DNA of 64,000 bases from contig NC_016522.1 of the NCBI RefSeq assembly GCF_000236905.1, positions 868,001 through 932,000 on the forward strand, given 5' to 3'. The stretch's first letter is position 1; the number at the start of each line of letters is the position of its first letter. Both the position numbers and the translations under genes were made by a program. Positions 14,172 through 30,795 of the stretch are shown one piece after another. The stretch comes from Tetrapisispora phaffii CBS 4417 (taxonomy: Eukaryota; Ascomycota; Saccharomycetes; Saccharomycetales; Saccharomycetaceae). The notes beneath the pieces were generated by a model that worked only from the letters and a program-made list of their open reading frames with translations, was not told the origin of the DNA and ran no database searches.

Positions 14172-14774
14172 TTAAGCTGGAATGATCAATTCTTTAACCA
14201 AATAGTTATAAATATCATCAGCACATTCTTCAACTGATTTCAAATGAGTTTTTAAGTGTAATTCTGGAGATTCCGGGGCCTCGTATGGAGCAGATATCCC
14301 TGTAAATTCTTTGATAATACCTTCTCTTGCTTTCTTATATAGTCCTTTAGGATCTCTTTTTTCAGCTATATCTAAGGGAACGTCAACGAATACTTCAATG
14401 AATTTCAAACCAGCTTCTTTATGTAGTTCTCTGGCTCTATTTCTATCAGCTTTATATGGTGAGATAAATGAAGAAATTGAAATAGTACAAGCATCTGCAA
14501 ATAGTCTCGAAACTTCACTAATTCTACGAATATTTTCATTCCTATCCTCTTCAGTGAAACCCAAATCTTTGTTCAATCCAAATCTTATATTATCACCATC
14601 TAATCTATAAGCAGATAATTTTTTATTCAATAATTTTTGCTCCAAAGCACATGCAATGGTACTTTTACCAGAGGCACTTAAACCAGTTAACCAAATAGTA
14701 CAACCATCTTGATTTCTTAGTTGCTTCCTTTCATCATAAGTCAAATTTGGATGCCAAGTGATATTAGTTGCCAT
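14172..14774 (-). CDS. MET14: MET14, adenylylsulfate (APS) kinase
   Basis: Phosphorylates adenosine 5'-phosphosulfate to PAPS using ATP, the second step of sulfate assimilation in the cytosol. The protein has 200 residues, against 202 in S. cerevisiae, and is collinear throughout. The P-loop GLSASGKST is at residues 31-39. [17 protein letters not shown] is the substrate-binding segment and [18 protein letters not shown] the conserved lid region. In S. cerevisiae this gene is the immediate neighbour of CEN11 with its 5' end facing the centromere. The same orientation relative to the candidate centromere is seen here. Confidence 0.98.
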
Positions 14775-15191
14775 ATTTAAAATAGTGAATAGACTGCTAT
14801 TGAATAAGTTTCAGTTTTTTATAGTAACCTTGGGTTATCTCATGTACAAAAAACCATTGTGTCATTATTAAAAATAATTAACTATAATGATTTGCTTGTC
14901 TAAGTAAACATTGATATAATTCAGGAGAATGATTCTGTATTTATACTAAAATATGAATGAATTAGTTTCAGATACAATATAAAACATCCAACATATGATG
15001 ATATCATTAGCAAAACTTAAAGATACACTAGATTAAGTTACTAGAAGAATCATCCTTTTAAGACGTTAAATTATGTCATAGTTGTGGAATAACTAACATT
15101 CACGTGCAATTATAAAATAGTTCACAAGTAAAATCTTAATTTTTCGTTCTCATAAAAGTAAATTATAATTAATCATAACATATTTATTGTG
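14775..15191. other. MET14 promoter region
   Basis: A 417-bp AT-rich region between the MET14 start and the candidate centromere. It contains a CACGTG motif with a nearby TGTGG (listed separately). No gene was seen. Confidence 0.6.
15083..15106. promoter_or_regulatory. Possible Met31/32 + Cbf1 site pair for MET14
   Basis: TTCACGTG at 15099-15106 matches the Cbf1 E-box. TGTGG at 15083-15087 is the core of the Met31/Met32 site. They lie about 310-330 bp upstream of the MET14 ATG, and paired sites of this kind drive sulfur-starvation induction of MET genes. The same CACGTG could instead be a centromere CDEI, so the reading is tentative. Confidence 0.5.
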
Positions 15192-15351
15192 TTCGGAAAC
15201 GGTATTTATTTAGTATTGTTATATTATTGTACAAAATATATATTATATATTTTTTGTTTATATAGTTAATAAATATTTATATAAATATATATTTTATTTA
15301 TACTTTATAATAATATTTAAATTAGAAAATAAACTCTATATTTTACACGTG
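15192..15351 (-). other. Candidate point centromere (CDEI-CDEII-CDEIII)
   Basis: Read on the minus strand: CACGTG (CDEI-like core, 15346-15351), then about 125-140 bp of extremely AT-rich DNA (around 94% A+T over 15221-15345), then TTTCCGAA (CDEIII core with the essential CCG, 15192-15199). The order and relative orientation are those of a yeast point centromere. The site lies 420-580 bp from the 5' end of MET14, the CEN11 neighbour in S. cerevisiae. The next conserved gene on the other side is QCR10, which lies beside CEN8. CEN8 and CEN11 belong to duplicated regions. Weak points: the CDEI flank is not the full RTCACRTG, the CDEIII flanks match poorly, and CDEII is longer than in S. cerevisiae. 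Confidence 0.68.
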
Positions 15352-15709
15352 CGTAATAATTACTTTGGGTGTTGATTCTGAACAAAGATTATTGTTCTGT
15401 TTAATGATTTCATTTAATTTGAAGCAAGGTTAAGAGAAATATTTCCTTACTTATACGGCTAATAAACGGTTTTGGCAGTAAAATTGTCTTCCAATACTTT
15501 GATCTGAACTATATTTCTTTATGATTCCATTCTCTTAAGCAAATTATAAATTTTTAAATATTGGTGTTGATTATACAATTTCTACACAGTGACAGTAATT
15601 TTCCCATTTTTATTTTTTTAATTTTAGTTCTTAAATACAGGCACCGACAATAAAACATAAAGAATGCAGCTACCATAATTTATTGAATTAGTGATTCTCT
15701 GACCTAAAA
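15352..15709. other. Intergenic region between candidate centromere and Thr-rich gene
   Basis: A 358-bp AT-rich stretch on the 3' side of the minus-strand gene that ends at 15710. I see no gene or clear site. Confidence 0.55.
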
Positions 15710-17142
15710 CTAAATGGTAAGTGTTGTTGTAGTGAGAGTTGTGCTATACTGTGTAATTGTTCTGGATTTCCATTTTGTTGATACAGTCACTAACTTTTTC
15801 TTCTTTATTTTTGTAGTAGTCTCCGTTGTGACTGTTTTTTTAACATCTATGTCAGTAGTGGTCGATGTCATAGTTGTCGTCTTGGTGACAACAGGACCGC
15901 CAATAGTTTTTGTTACAGTCAGAATATTAGTATTTGTATTTTTCAATATATCAGTGGATGTCTCTGTTGTATATACCACAATTTTATTAAAATCAGTTAT
16001 TGTTTTTTTTCCTACAAATACAGTTGTATAAACATCTTCAATATTAGTTTCAATAATGGTTGACATTTGATTTTTATATTTTAAAATCGTATTTTCTTCT
16101 ACTTCAGTTTCCGTTGTAGTATCATAATAATAATTGTAAAAAGTCTTGGTGTAAGTACTAGTTATTGTATCATCAATTGTCGTGTAAAATTTAAAGCATT
16201 TGATTTTATCATATGTCTCAGTTTTTAGAGAAGTTGATAATATGGTGCTCCACAGTGTAGTGGGTATAGTTGTATAGCAGTATGAATTAATTAAAGTACA
16301 ATCAGTCGATGTCAAGTTCAATGTGGTTTCAATAGTTTTAATTAACGGAAATGTGATGTTTGTTAAGATTGTAATTGCTTGATAAGAGGTTAAGGGATGT
16401 TTGATTGTTTCATATATTTTTGTAAACGGAGTTGGAATCGATGATGAATAGTGATAATTTTCGAATTTATACATTTTTTCATAACTTTTTTCCATGAATT
16501 TTAAATACTCATGAATATAAGATTTCAGTTCAAAAATTAATGGTTTCCTGTACACGACATTATTTTCAAATATATCATTGAATATCATATAACTTAATTC
16601 ATTTCCCCCATCATCTGACTCATGATCATCTAAATCATTGAAAGTATTTATAGTACGTTCCGGATTACTTCCCGTCTTATGACAGTGAAATGAATAAATA
16701 TTGTTTAAGTATTTTATACATTCACAATTGTCTATATCATTAAAGTGATTTTTATCAACTGTAATGCAGAATTTACACTTTCCAACATTTTTATTAAAAT
16801 TTTGTAATAAACAAAATTCCATTTCTGAGGTATCCTGTAATTAATATATATCGATGTACTATAAATAACATCCAATAGGAACTGGTGATTATAGTGATAA
16901 TAAATATAATTGATTGTTAATAAATTAGAAAAAAATCGAGTGAACTTAATTGAGGTTGAGTATATACATACGACATTATATCCTGTTAAAGAGGGCATTT
17001 CCCAGTCAATGACAATATTTTCTTGTCTTATACATTTTAACAGATCAAACTGACTAAATGAGTACACCGCTTGCAACCAGAGAGTAAGTAAAATAAAATA
17101 TGAACAAAACCTATGACGCTTTACCTGCTTGTTATTTGACAT
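15710..17142 (-). CDS. Unrecognised secreted Thr-rich protein, probably two exons
   Basis: I do not recognise this gene. Exon 1 (17142-16972, 57 codons) encodes a basic N-terminus and hydrophobic core (FCSYFILLTLWLQAVYS), a likely signal peptide. It is followed at a codon boundary by GTATGT, the yeast 5' splice site. Joining to G16834 after TTACAG keeps frame into a 374-codon second exon (16834-15710), giving about 431 residues. The mature part starts with a Cys-containing region (C-x2-C and C-x-C pairs). A Tyr/Thr-rich middle follows, then a C-terminal third full of short Thr repeats with a Lys-rich patch. There is no hydrophobic GPI-type tail. Without splicing, exon 2 could still start at Met 16822 as a 370-residue protein lacking a signal. 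A cell-surface role is inference only. Confidence 0.6.
16835..16971 (-). other. Putative spliceosomal intron (137 bp)
   Basis: On the minus strand the intron begins GTATGT (16971-16966), contains TATTAAC (16922-16916, one change from TACTAAC) and ends TTACAG at 16835. Phase 0 joining links a signal-peptide exon to the long downstream frame. A CACCAG lies nearer the branch site and would normally be preferred; its use would give a different, short C-terminus. The acceptor choice is therefore uncertain. Confidence 0.55.
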
Positions 17143-18082: not shown

Positions 18083-18319
18083 ATGATAAATTACATCTCT
18101 AAAGCCGCTTTCAAGAAAAGTCCACATTTCGGTAGATTAAGTTTTGGAAATTTAATAAACTATTCTCCAAACCTATTGCTATGGGGTGGGGCTTGGGCTG
18201 CATCTATTGCTGTTTTCACTGAAGGTTGGCCACTTTTCCAAGATGCCTTCTACAAAAAGATTCCATATTTTGGTCAACATTGGATTGTAGAAATTCCACC
18301 AGAAGACAAGCAACACTAA
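18083..18319 (+). CDS. QCR10: QCR10, small subunit of respiratory complex III
   Basis: Smallest supernumerary subunit of the ubiquinol-cytochrome c reductase in the inner mitochondrial membrane. The protein has 78 residues, against 77 in S. cerevisiae. Shared blocks are HFGRLSF, YSPNLLLWGGAWA (start of the single membrane helix), FTEGWPLFQD, KKIPYFGQ and the C-terminal PPEDK. The S. cerevisiae gene has a small intron after the first two codons. Here the frame runs uninterrupted from ATG, and no GTATGT/TACTAAC pair is seen just upstream. It is the first conserved gene on the right of the candidate centromere. Confidence 0.94.
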   Translation: MINYISKAAFKKSPHFGRLSFGNLINYSPNLLLWGGAWAASIAVFTEGWPLFQDAFYKKIPYFGQHWIVEIPPEDKQH

Positions 18320-20824: not shown

Positions 20825-21244
20825 ATGAGCAATCTATCAATTAAGCAGAGGTCACATTTATTTCAAGACACATCAATGAATAACGTTACTAATAACAATA
20901 ACAACAGTAACAGTAATAATTCTGTGAATTACAACAACGACAACAATAGCAGCAATAATAATAACAACAATAACAACAATAACAATAATAACAACAGCAA
21001 CAACAACAGCAACATGAACCAGCAGCAGAATCCATTTAATAATATTGGTACTCCATCATTTAATATACAACAAATATCACCTCAAATCTTACAAAATTTA
21101 ACCCCACAACAGTTACAGTTGATACAACAGCGTCATCAGCAACTTCTAAGAAGTAGAATCCAACAAGCTCAGCAAAATCAACAAAATAAACAGAAGCAGC
21201 AACAGCAACAGAAGCAGCAACAGCATCAGCAACAGCAACAGCAT

Positions 21245-21292
<48 letters not shown>

Positions 21293-23695
21293 GAGCAACA
21301 GAGGTTAAAGCAACAAGAGCAACAGACACAACCTAGACAACAACAACAACAACAGTTCGACAGTAAACAAGATATGAAACAGGCTAATACAACAAGAAAA
21401 CAAAGCAAGTCCTCCCAAGTTCAACAAATGAAGAATGCTGAGCCAACTGAGGGAAACCAAAATGGGTTCCAATTACCTTTTAACCTGCCACCACAAATTG
21501 CTCAGCTACCTTTGCCCATGCAGCAACAGGTATTAGCATCACTAAAACAACAAGCTATACAAAAAAATAACCCATCAGTTGTTACAGCAATCACAATGGC
21601 TCAAGAACAACTGCAACAACAGATTCAAAGAATTCAACAAAGGCAACAAGTGACTCAGCAAGGTAAGGAACCAACTCAAACTCAAGGTCCACAAAGCTTA
21701 GCTAATAAATCTCAGCAAAAAACTCAGAAAGTCAATTCTGGCTCAGGCACTCAAAGAAAACAGTTGCAAAGCAAAAGGAAAACATCTAATATTCCTAATA
21801 AGTTACAGAATGTGCAGCAACTTCAACAATATGCACCTCCGCAGAAAATGGAGTTGCCTGCTTTCCAAACAATCAAGTACAATCCTCCAGAAGCAATGAT
21901 TCCTTACCAGGGTTATTGGTCAGATAAACAAGCAACTACTGATACGTTGTTATACGAACAAATAACGCAAAGAGATAAGTCTAATCGTATGGATCAGTCG
22001 AAAGAACAAAATGGTTACCCGCCTTTTAGTATATTTGGGTTCAGTGATAAAGAATATACTGCTAAGTTATGGCATAATTTAAAATATTACGAAGGCTCAA
22101 AGGAAGTCAGAATGGCTTCTATTAGATCAACATCTCAAAATGTTCCAAGTGTAAGTATTTGGGGTAATGGATATGCTGGATATGGTAATGGCAACACGAA
22201 TACAAAGACAAAAATTATATCCGGCATTAATGATGACCACCGCCCAATCATTCCTGATAAAATGTTAGATATGTACAAGCATGCTATGACCGAGGTTTCA
22301 GAAGATTTAATTCCGATCAGATTGGAATTTGACCATGAGCGTGATAAGTTTTCTCTAAGAGATACTTTACTTTGGAATAGAAATGACACGTTACTTGACG
22401 TTGACGATTTTGTTGACCATATGTTAATGGACTACCGATTTGACCCTGAATTTTCATCTCAAATATCGGACATAATTTCTCAGTCAATTAAAGAACAAAT
22501 TATTGACTTCCAACCAAATCCTTATACTAATATACAAGATGAAAGGATAGGTGGGGATGATATGCGTGTGAGAATTAAATTTGATATTGTTATAGGCCAA
22601 AGTCAACTAGTAGATCAAATTGAATGGGATATTTCAAATCCAGATAATGATCCAGAAGAATTTGCAACCAGTATGTGCAATGAATTGGAGTTGCCTGGGG
22701 AATTTCAAACTGCGATTGCACATTCAATTAGAGAACAAGTTCATGCTTATCACAAATATTTAGCTTTATTAGGATATAAGTTCGATGGTTCGGCGGTTGA
22801 AGATGCTGATATTCGAAGCAGGATATTACCTAACATTACTGTTGATAATATTTATAGAGCTTCAGCAGATTCAAAGTTATATACACCTAATTTATTAACG
22901 ATTTCTGCGGCTGAACTGGAAAGATTAGATAAAGATAAAGATAGAGATTCAAGACGTAAGAGAAGACAAGGTAGATTTAATAGACGTGGTGTTGTCATCA
23001 CCAGTAATACTTCATCCATTGTTGGTACTAATAGCGGTACACCGTTAGGTATTGGAGGAAATAATGCAGTTTTGAATTCCTCATCTGGGACTCCAACTGA
23101 AGTTTTGTTACCTGACATTACCGATGCATTGAGAACATTTAGAACACCAATTCCAAGTACCGTGTTACCTGGTGGTTTAGATTTGGGTCCATCAGTAGAG
23201 TCATTCGAGTTAAAGGCCACAACAACATCAAATCCCAGACCTGATAAACCTAAGTTACAAATGCCTTCGTGTTATATTGTTGATCATATTCCTGGTAAGT
23301 CGTTATTATTATCGATTACTGTACCAAAAAAGGAAAACTTGAAATTGAGGATGAATGCTACCAATAGAACAACCATTGTGCCACATAATTATACTGCTAC
23401 GAAATCAGTTATATCAAACGTTAAACAAGAAGCAGGGCATGAGAGCAGCACATCACGAAAGCAATTACCAGACAACGCAATGGACATCTCACCACCGACA
23501 ACCATGGAACCACAAGTAAACCGCCCAATCACAATGGATAAAGTCGATGTGAATACCAGTTCAAATACAATTAATAAAGAAACTGAATCCAAAATTGATA
23601 CTGAATTGAATCCAATTAGTAGTATAAATCATACTACCACAGGCCCACAAAAAATAAATGAAGATGGACAGGTAGAGAGCAAAACATCTGCTTAA
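20825..23695 (+). CDS. SNF5: SNF5, core subunit of the SWI/SNF remodeller
   Basis: Core subunit of the nuclear SWI/SNF chromatin-remodelling complex, needed for assembly and activator contact. The protein has 956 residues, against 905 in S. cerevisiae. The first 330 residues are low complexity: an Asn tract (about 20-65), then long Gln tracts (about 95-175). The conserved SNF5 homology region has two repeats, about residues 490-560 (PIRLEFDHERDKFSLRDTLL) and 585-650 (KFDIVIGQSQLVDQIEWDIS). A basic segment, RRKRRQGRFNRRG, follows near residue 712. The C-terminus is Ser/Thr/Pro-rich. Its neighbours APM3 and BSD2 match YBR288C-YBR290W order. Confidence 0.97.
20895..21350. repeat. AAC/AAT and CAG/CAA trinucleotide tracts within SNF5
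   Basis: AAC/AAT/AGC codon runs occur at about 20895-21010 and nearly pure CAGCAA runs at about 21190-21300, coding poly-Asn and poly-Gln. These are typical slippage-prone microsatellites, so their length probably varies between strains. Confidence 0.95.
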
Positions 23696-28878: not shown

Positions 28879-30795
28879 ATGCTTAGATCAAAGGCTACTA
28901 GCATTTTAAAGAGAACGGATTTTTCATCTATCCTAAGAACAAACAAGAGGTTTGTATCAACTATAAAAGATATTTCTTTCGAATCAAGATCACAAGATGA
29001 TATCACTCTGCCTGAGAAGCAAAAATCATTATTTGAACAAAAGTTTCAGAATAAGAAACCCAGTCAAGATAGACTAAATGTCAATGGTTCAATTGAATGT
29101 TCCTTACATGGTTTCACTTTATTAGATTCGCCTTTGTTTAATAAAGGTACTGCTTTTACTAAAGAAGAAAGAGATCAATTTGGTTTATCAGGTTTATTAC
29201 CACCAAAAGTTAGTACCCTTGAAGAGCAATTAGAGAGAAATTATAAACTTTTATGTGAATTGAAAACACCATTAGAGAAAAATGATTTTATGACTCACTT
29301 GAGAATGCAAAATAAAGTTTTATATTTTGCTATGGTGAAAAAGTATATTAGAGAATTAGTTCCAATTATTTATACTCCAACAGAAGGCGATGCAATTGCT
29401 AAATATTCAGACAGATTGAAAAGGCCAGAAGGTGTATTCTTAAACATCAATGAACCGGAAAAAGTAGAAGAAAATTTAGCTGCATATGGTGATGCTAAGG
29501 ATGTAGATTATATTGTCGTAACAGATTCTGAGGGTATTTTAGGTATTGGTGATCAAGGTGTAGGCGGTATAAGAATTTCTGTCTCCAAAATGGCGTTAAT
29601 GACATTATGTGGTGGTATTCATCCTGGCCGTGTATTGCCTGTTTGTTTAGATGTCGGTACCAACAATCAAGAATTACTGAATAATGATTTATACACAGGT
29701 AACAGATTTCCAAGAGTTAGAGGTGAAGCATATGATAAGTTGGTTGACGCATTTATCACTGGTGTTAAAAAGCAATTTCCAAATGCTATCTTACATTTTG
29801 AAGATTTTGGTGTAAAGAATGCTAGAAGATTGCTAGAGAAATATCGTAATAAAGTACCATGTTTTAATGATGACATCCAAGGCACAGGAGCCGTTGTGAC
29901 AGCATCATTAATTGCTGCCTTAAAACATACAAACAGGGATTTGAAGAAGTCAAAAATTCTCATATATGGTGCAGGCTCAGCTGGTATTGGTATTGCCGAT
30001 CAAATTGCAAGCCATATGGTTACCCATGGGTTATCATTGCAAGAAGCCAGATCAAATATATATCTAATAAATAGAAAAGGTTTGATTTTGGAATCCAATG
30101 TTGCAACTTCTTCACCTGCTCAGCATGTTTATGCTAAACCTGATCAGGATTGGGAAGGTGTTGACACTGCCTCATTGCAAAATTTAATTAAACACATTCA
30201 ACCTACGTGTTTAGTTGGTTGCTCTACTAAAGCTGGTGCCTTCACAAAAGAGTGTATACAAGAAATGCACAAACATAATTCTAGACCAATTGTATTCCCA
30301 TTATCTAATCCAACAAGACTTCATGAAGCAGTACCTGAAGATGTTATGAAATGGACCAACAACGAAGCTTTGGTTGCTACCGGATCTCCATTCAAACCTG
30401 TAAATGGCTATAGAATTTCCGAAAATAATAACTGTTTTTCTTTCCCAGGTATTGGGTTAGGTTCAATGTTGGCCAAAGCTTCTATCATTTCAGATAAAAT
30501 GATTTCAGCTGCTGTAGATGAGTTAGCATCATTATCACCTTTAGAAGAGAACAACTCCAAACCTGGATTGTTACCACCTTTGGAGGTTATCACTGAAACG
30601 TCCGCTAGAGTCGCTACTGCTGTTTTATTGCAAGCATTGGAAGAAGGAACAGCAAGAGTAGAAGAGAATGATACTAAGATCCCACGTGATTTTGATGAAT
30701 GTCTGGAATGGGTGAAGGAGTCGATGTGGCAACCAATATACAGACCAATGACCAAAGTAAATTATGATCCGTCGATACATACTCAACAAACTTAA
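28879..30795 (+). CDS. MAE1: MAE1, mitochondrial NAD(P)-malic enzyme
   Basis: Oxidative decarboxylation of malate to pyruvate in the mitochondrial matrix. The ATG at 28879 gives 638 residues beginning MLRSKATSILKRTDF, a basic, Ser-rich mitochondrial presequence; the frame extends 5' only through non-ATG codons. Family blocks include IIYTPTEGDAIAKYS (catalytic Tyr region, about 162), ILGIGDQGVGG, LHFEDFGVKNARRLLEKY, FNDDIQGTGAVV (metal ligands) and the NAD-binding LIYGAGSAGIGIADQI (about 361). The C-terminus matches S. cerevisiae Mae1 closely (WQPIYRPMTKVNYDPSIHTQQ). Length against the family's 669 differs mainly in the presequence. Confidence 0.97.
   Translation: MLRSKATSILKRTDFSSILRTNKRFVSTIKDISFESRSQDDITLPEKQKSLFEQKFQNKKPSQDRLNVNGSIECSLHGFTLLDSPLFNKGTAFTKEERDQFGLSGLLPPKVSTLEEQLERNYKLLCELKTPLEKNDFMTHLRMQNKVLYFAMVKKYIRELVPIIYTPTEGDAIAKYSDRLKRPEGVFLNINEPEKVEENLAAYGDAKDVDYIVVTDSEGILGIGDQGVGGIRISVSKMALMTLCGGIHPGRVLPVCLDVGTNNQELLNNDLYTGNRFPRVRGEAYDKLVDAFITGVKKQFPNAILHFEDFGVKNARRLLEKYRNKVPCFNDDIQGTGAVVTASLIAALKHTNRDLKKSKILIYGAGSAGIGIADQIASHMVTHGLSLQEARSNIYLINRKGLILESNVATSSPAQHVYAKPDQDWEGVDTASLQNLIKHIQPTCLVGCSTKAGAFTKECIQEMHKHNSRPIVFPLSNPTRLHEAVPEDVMKWTNNEALVATGSPFKPVNGYRISENNNCFSFPGIGLGSMLAKASIISDKMISAAVDELASLSPLEENNSKPGLLPPLEVITETSARVATAVLLQALEEGTARVEENDTKIPRDFDECLEWVKESMWQPIYRPMTKVNYDPSIHTQQT

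Follow-up and report, generated by a model that had tools for sequence, protein, structure and literature searches.

The 64,000-bp window analysed here (C3:868001-932000; positions below are those of the window unless a chromosome is named) lies on chromosome 3 of Tetrapisispora phaffii CBS 4417, whose assembly holds 12,115,070 bp in 17 contigs, C17 being 14,880 bp long; a protein encoded on C7 is 100% identical to TPHA_0G03340 of this strain, to which the available text of PMC5499181 gives 12.1 Mb and 16 chromosomes. MET14 and QCR10, which the original prediction had named as neighbours, are both recovered by their Pfam matches, and in the intergene upstream of MET14 lies an AT-rich segment with the elements of a point centromere (Table 1). 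Between this segment and QCR10 are two overlapping minus-strand ORFs in different frames (15710-17142), one Thr-rich and 370 aa long, the other 136 aa long with a signal-peptide-like start; neither has a Pfam match, and together they may represent a single gene of a fast-evolving, cell-surface-like kind that is broken or has been misread. A SNF5 orthologue (PF04855) with long Asn/Gln runs occupies 20825-23695.

Table 1. Genes and predicted centromere elements at the chromosome 3 locus (+n counted from the CCG of CDEIII)
Feature	Positions	Strand	Remarks
MET14, adenylyl-sulfate kinase	14172..14774	-	APS_kinase, E 2.3e-71; 5' end towards predicted centromere
TCACGTG, within TTCACGTG (15099-15106)	15100..15106	+	325 bp upstream of MET14 start
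TTAT block	15165..15168	-	+28..+31; conserved among the genome's centromere candidates
TGTT block	15177..15180	-	+16..+19; conserved among the genome's centromere candidates
CDEIII, 26-bp S. cerevisiae frame	15183..15208	-	CCGAA core at 15192-15196 (-)
CDEII, predicted Cse4 nucleosome DNA	15209..15345	-	137 bp, 92.7% AT
CDEI, predicted Cbf1 site	15346..15353	-	reads CGCACGTG; hexamer CACGTG at 15346-15351
QCR10	18083..18319	+	Pfam match, E 7.2e-26

On the minus strand CGCACGTG is followed by CDEII and then by a CDEIII that contains CCGAACACAATAAATATGTT, with the TTAT block at +28. The length of CDEII is defined by the S. cerevisiae CDEIII frame, which we take to be 26 bp beginning 12 bp before the CCG. 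The plus-strand TTCGGAAA at 15192-15199 is TTTCCGAA on the minus strand, and it stands with CACGTG in the orientation originally described. The distance between these two motifs is 146 bp, where 125-140 bp was first stated; the AT content, first put at about 94%, is 92.7% for CDEII in the S. cerevisiae frame (Table 1). The 5' half of CDEIII has neither the TGT half-site nor a G at -5.

A CACGTG/TTTCCGAA pair with 130-160 bp between its members is unique in the window and never arises in 100 dinucleotide shuffles of it, CACGTG by itself being found four times and TTTCCGAA twice. Nowhere else in the window is a 120-bp segment as AT-rich as between these two motifs: the AT content of 0.933 at 15209-15328 is reached by 23 of 63,881 120-bp segments, all inside one block, 15202-15345. 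The second TTTCCGAA (30416, plus strand) has a CACGTG 259 bp downstream, at 30683; this region (30416-30688) has the wrong order and spacing for a centromere. Its CDEIII profile score is the highest in the window after that of the predicted centromere and the positions overlapping it.

Similarly built candidates, each with one AT block, were found on 13 of the 16 chromosomes (C1-C8, C10, C11, C12, C15 and C16); the motif matches and the intergenes beside genes of seven Pfam marker families that were inspected gave none on C9, C13 and C14. The families searched in the genome were PF00285, PF01031, PF01204, PF01073, PF08066, PF03464 and PF01416, whose genes we take to adjoin centromeres in the S. 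cerevisiae gene order. Intergenes beside part of the family matches were inspected, as were AT-rich motif matches; the family matches left out were C11:365k of PF01204, 10 of the 11 of PF01073, that on C13 of PF03464 and that on C5 of PF01416. Counted genome-wide, the motif patterns were hardly or not at all commoner than their backwards controls (59 against 47; 30 against 29 for CCGAACN8TDTG; 135 against 152). For the 59-match search, 10-kb stretches around six AT-rich-looking matches were examined; four of these gave candidates (C3, C6, C7 and C8:142721), and C8:255307 and C11:280064 were not accepted. Among the 18 of 30 CCGAACN8TDTG matches that were inspected, the 120 bp upstream are AT-rich in seven (0.84-0.93) and not in the other 11 (0.55-0.76). 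The matches listed for the 135-match search reach no further than C9.

A near-perfect CDEIII match at C4:528387 was dropped, its upstream DNA being 62.5% AT, and the accepted C4 candidate was located beside a PF01416 match instead. High-scoring PF01416 pseudouridine-synthase genes, presumably DEG1-like, stand about 2 kb or less from the candidates on both C16 (108190-108513) and C4 (153815-154138), and the pair looks like a duplicate kept from the genome duplication. On C2, the three intergenes inspected beside the CIT and flavodoxin genes (the latter presumably YCP4) held no candidate, and the accepted one lies more than 9 kb from both markers; on C1, the NTH-ECM15 intergene held none and the candidate sits on the opposite side of ECM15. 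The C12 and C6 candidates were found by motifs, and a Vps8 gene (PF12816) lies near the latter. C7 and C6 carry extra same-orientation copies of CCGAA, of which the copy at CDEI distance was chosen. At C10:84022-84235, C15:39004-39217 and C5:624995-625190 a second, inverted CCGAA stands 165-183 bp from the first, beyond the AT block; the choice between copies on these three chromosomes was made with the 3' motif in view, and they are possibly two-ended CDEIII centromeres, or possibly owe the arrangement to chance.

Alignment of the 13 candidates gives a species form of the three elements. A CAYRTG hexamer serves as CDEI in nine of them (in either reading direction, CACATG or CACGTG in C1, C2, C3, C12 and C16, CATGTG in C6, C7 and C8, and CATATG in C5); in C4 and C11 the only CDEI-like sites, at 135 bp, are degenerate, and C10 and C15 show no recognisable CDEI within 116-146 bp. 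The nine CDEII lengths fall into two groups, about 125 bp (124, 124, 125 and 126 bp) and about 135 bp (133, 135, 136, 136 and 137 bp), one helical turn apart; nine lengths drawn uniformly from 124-137, limits that were themselves set by the data, would leave a gap of at least 7 with a probability of 0.029. The chromosome 3 CDEII, originally called atypically long, is therefore of normal length for this genome, where the others measure 124-136 bp. Nor is its CDEIII flank, originally called diverged, a local departure: it has the form common to the candidates, with TGT at -12 to -10 missing from all 13 and the 3' extension shared, while G at -5 is present in five of the 13, C3 not among them. 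In the nine candidates chosen without the 3' motif, the first outer block comprises T+16 (8/9), G+17 (6/9), T+18 (8/9) and T+19 (8/9), and the second T+28 (8/9), T+29 (8/9), A+30 (9/9) and T+31 (9/9); from there to +74 a single weak column, at +68, rises above the same threshold. An inverted repeat AACA...TGTT in the 3' part of CDEIII, well formed in some candidates (C7 with 14 of 17 letters, C12 with 14 of 19, and C3, C10 and C11 with 12 of 17), is not general and is given no weight here.

A 40-column CDEIII profile built from the other 12 candidates ranks the chromosome 3 site first of 127,922 window positions, with 21.3 bits, the best position not overlapping it being 30419 on the plus strand with 13.95 bits; a profile from C5, C7, C8, C10, C11 and C16 only ranks it second in the window, behind 35265 on the minus strand. 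In leave-one-out tests with a -6 to +35 profile each of the 13 candidates outscores all 342,578 background positions (172,519 bases: the window without 15100-15400, with loci L035, L036, L051 and 25 of L002-L031), C3 reaching 30.4 and the background at most 12.0. CCGAA was demanded in picking candidates, so its invariance among them is by construction. With the five CCGAA columns zeroed, none of the 342,578 background positions reaches C3, and C7, C12 and C15 likewise beat them all; between 1 and 11 background positions reach seven other candidates, 350 reach C2 and 236 reach C6. A 22-base CDEIII consensus, TTCCGAACANANAAAATWTGTT, has 12 genome-wide matches at three or fewer mismatches, against seven for its backwards control. 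Six of the 12, all with three mismatches, fall outside the candidate set, and among the matches listed the chromosome 3 site is the only one on C3. The four places that match with at most one mismatch are all candidates (C10, C3, C7 and C11). The candidates themselves having supplied the consensus, the test says only that no other place in the genome matches equally well.

The gene neighbourhood points the same way. Relatives label MET14 as YKL001C and DID4 as YKL002W, and YKL systematic numbers by convention count outwards from CEN11; QCR10, we presume, adjoins CEN8 in S. cerevisiae. At the sister locus, the C7 candidate lies between DID4 and a 712-aa member of the dynamin family, which from its length we take to be VPS1 rather than DNM1. 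Because MET14 and QCR10 are on C3 and DID4 and the dynamin-family gene on C7, these two chromosomes would carry both duplicates of one ancestral centromere, each locus having kept different ancestral neighbours. Gene order is broken outside this island, by CTF18 (labelled YMR078C), a GST gene and a Snf7-domain gene on one side and by an adaptor subunit gene and SNF5 on the other.

Point centromeres of the Saccharomycetaceae are already well known, and the site can be set against their shared features. CGCACGTG fits the CDEI form NNCAVBTG given for the family in the available part of PMC3141009. The family-wide invariant positions of CDEIII are there given as CCGAA, which the site carries on the strand that the family rule expects relative to CDEI and CDEII; the S. 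cerevisiae consensus further has a TGT half-site and a central G, both lacking at the site and both outside these invariant positions. Its CDEII AT content lies inside the family's 76-98%, and CDEII length in the nine CAYRTG candidates is uniform save for a step of about 10 bp (124-126 or 133-137 bp), as in the family generally. The ancestral gene neighbourhood is also present, the S. cerevisiae order being taken in part from systematic names. The site thus resembles S. cerevisiae CEN8 and CEN11 in the order CDEI-CDEII-CDEIII, in CACGTG and CCGAA and in its neighbouring genes, but differs in its 137-bp CDEII (regular S. cerevisiae centromeres have 80-90 bp; PMC12925627), in the absence of the TGT half-site and in conservation to +31 beyond the CCG, the last measured on the T. 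phaffii candidates only and set against the 26-bp S. cerevisiae frame.

For two other relatives the comparison was made by CDEII. In the available text of PMC12925627, CDEII of Henningerozyma (Tetrapisispora) blattae, of the same family, is also long, at nearly 200 bp, and in Vanderwaltozyma CDEII comes in lengths of about 75 and about 85 bp, likewise differing by about 10 bp, where T. phaffii has about 125 and 135; such steps inside one genome are described for other yeasts too. The unconventional point centromeres of Naumovozyma (PMC4533239, PMC12925627) are likewise short and sequence-defined, but are described as lacking ordinary CDEI and CDEIII and as lying at non-syntenic places, whereas the T. 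phaffii site has both motifs and synteny. The atlas of 138 species in PMC12925627 was searched with a 26-bp CDEIII motif; it may well include the chromosome 3 locus, but since that motif ends at +13 in the S. cerevisiae frame it would miss the +16 and +28 blocks. No title among the literature matches listed concerns T. phaffii centromeres, and the words Tetrapisispora and phaffii are absent from the main text of PMC3141009, PMC12925627 and PMC4533239.

Three other explanations were weighed. The original prediction had allowed that TTCACGTG at 15099 might be CDEI, paired with a plus-strand CDEIII ending near 15199. The motif is indeed there, but the plus strand holds no CCG at all between 15100 and 15230 and hence no CCGAA, which refutes the proposed CDEIII, and the spacer (15107-15199; about 80-93 bp, 80.6% AT) is unlike the 124-137 bp of CDEII in the nine CAYRTG candidates. 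A Cbf1/Met4 site is presumably to be expected upstream of MET14, just where this motif lies, and TCACGTG is probably such a promoter site of MET14 and not CDEI; no Met31/32-like AACTGTGG site occurs in 14775-15345. We regard this arrangement of the centromere as extremely unlikely. That the AT-rich promoter-side intergene merely mimics a centromere, its E-box and CCG having met by chance, might draw on the genome-wide pattern counts, which barely exceed the backwards controls or fall below them. The joint pattern is nevertheless absent from all 100 window shuffles, the site takes first rank with the 12-candidate profile and it occupies a centromere-syntenic place, so that coincidence is hardly credible.

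It is also conceivable, though very improbable, that the ancestral centromere sequence persists here as a relict and that the working centromere of chromosome 3 lies elsewhere, for related yeasts have demonstrably lost centromeres from ancestral positions (PMC3141009, available text). A dead point centromere should decay, however, and here all three elements are intact, as is the 3' extension; the site is moreover among the genome's best CDEIII matches and, among those listed, the sole match on C3 at three or fewer mismatches to a consensus derived from the candidates.

We therefore conclude, as first proposed, that the minus-strand segment 15165-15353 (C3 about 883,165-883,353) is almost certainly the point centromere of this chromosome, CEN3 of T. 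phaffii, a call that rests on sequence anatomy (the order and orientation of the three elements), syntenic place and match to the other candidates. By its synteny CEN3 descends, as one of two duplicates, from the ancestral centromere behind S. cerevisiae CEN8 and CEN11. By homology, its CACGTG would be bound by a Cbf1 dimer, and the CCG with the bases to its right by the CBF3 complex (Cep3, Ctf13, Skp1 and Ndc10). A single Cse4 nucleosome would occupy the AT-rich DNA between them, and the kinetochore would assemble upon it.

In S. cerevisiae, Cep3 contacts the CCG of CDEIII and CBF1 sits on CDEI (PMC10381965), and a CBF3 model places Ndc10 over bases about 21-30 downstream of the CCG (PMC6077249; both as given in their available text), near the TGTT and TTAT blocks of T. 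phaffii. A tentative reading, which we hold to be possible and on balance doubtful, is that CDEIII of this species has been re-weighted, with the TGT half-site of Cep3 lost (on the 13 of 16 chromosomes examined) and specificity moved out to the TGTT (+16) and TTAT (+28) blocks; with the two CDEII classes and the CDEI-less C10 and C15, recognition may have shifted from Cep3 and Cbf1 towards Ndc10. The chromosome 3 centromere of T. phaffii is in any case fixed by sequence and synteny and yields a testable species consensus, and the +16 and +28 blocks, lying outside the 26-bp CDEIII frame, would offer a natural way of asking which stretches of DNA are read by CBF3, and notably by Ndc10.
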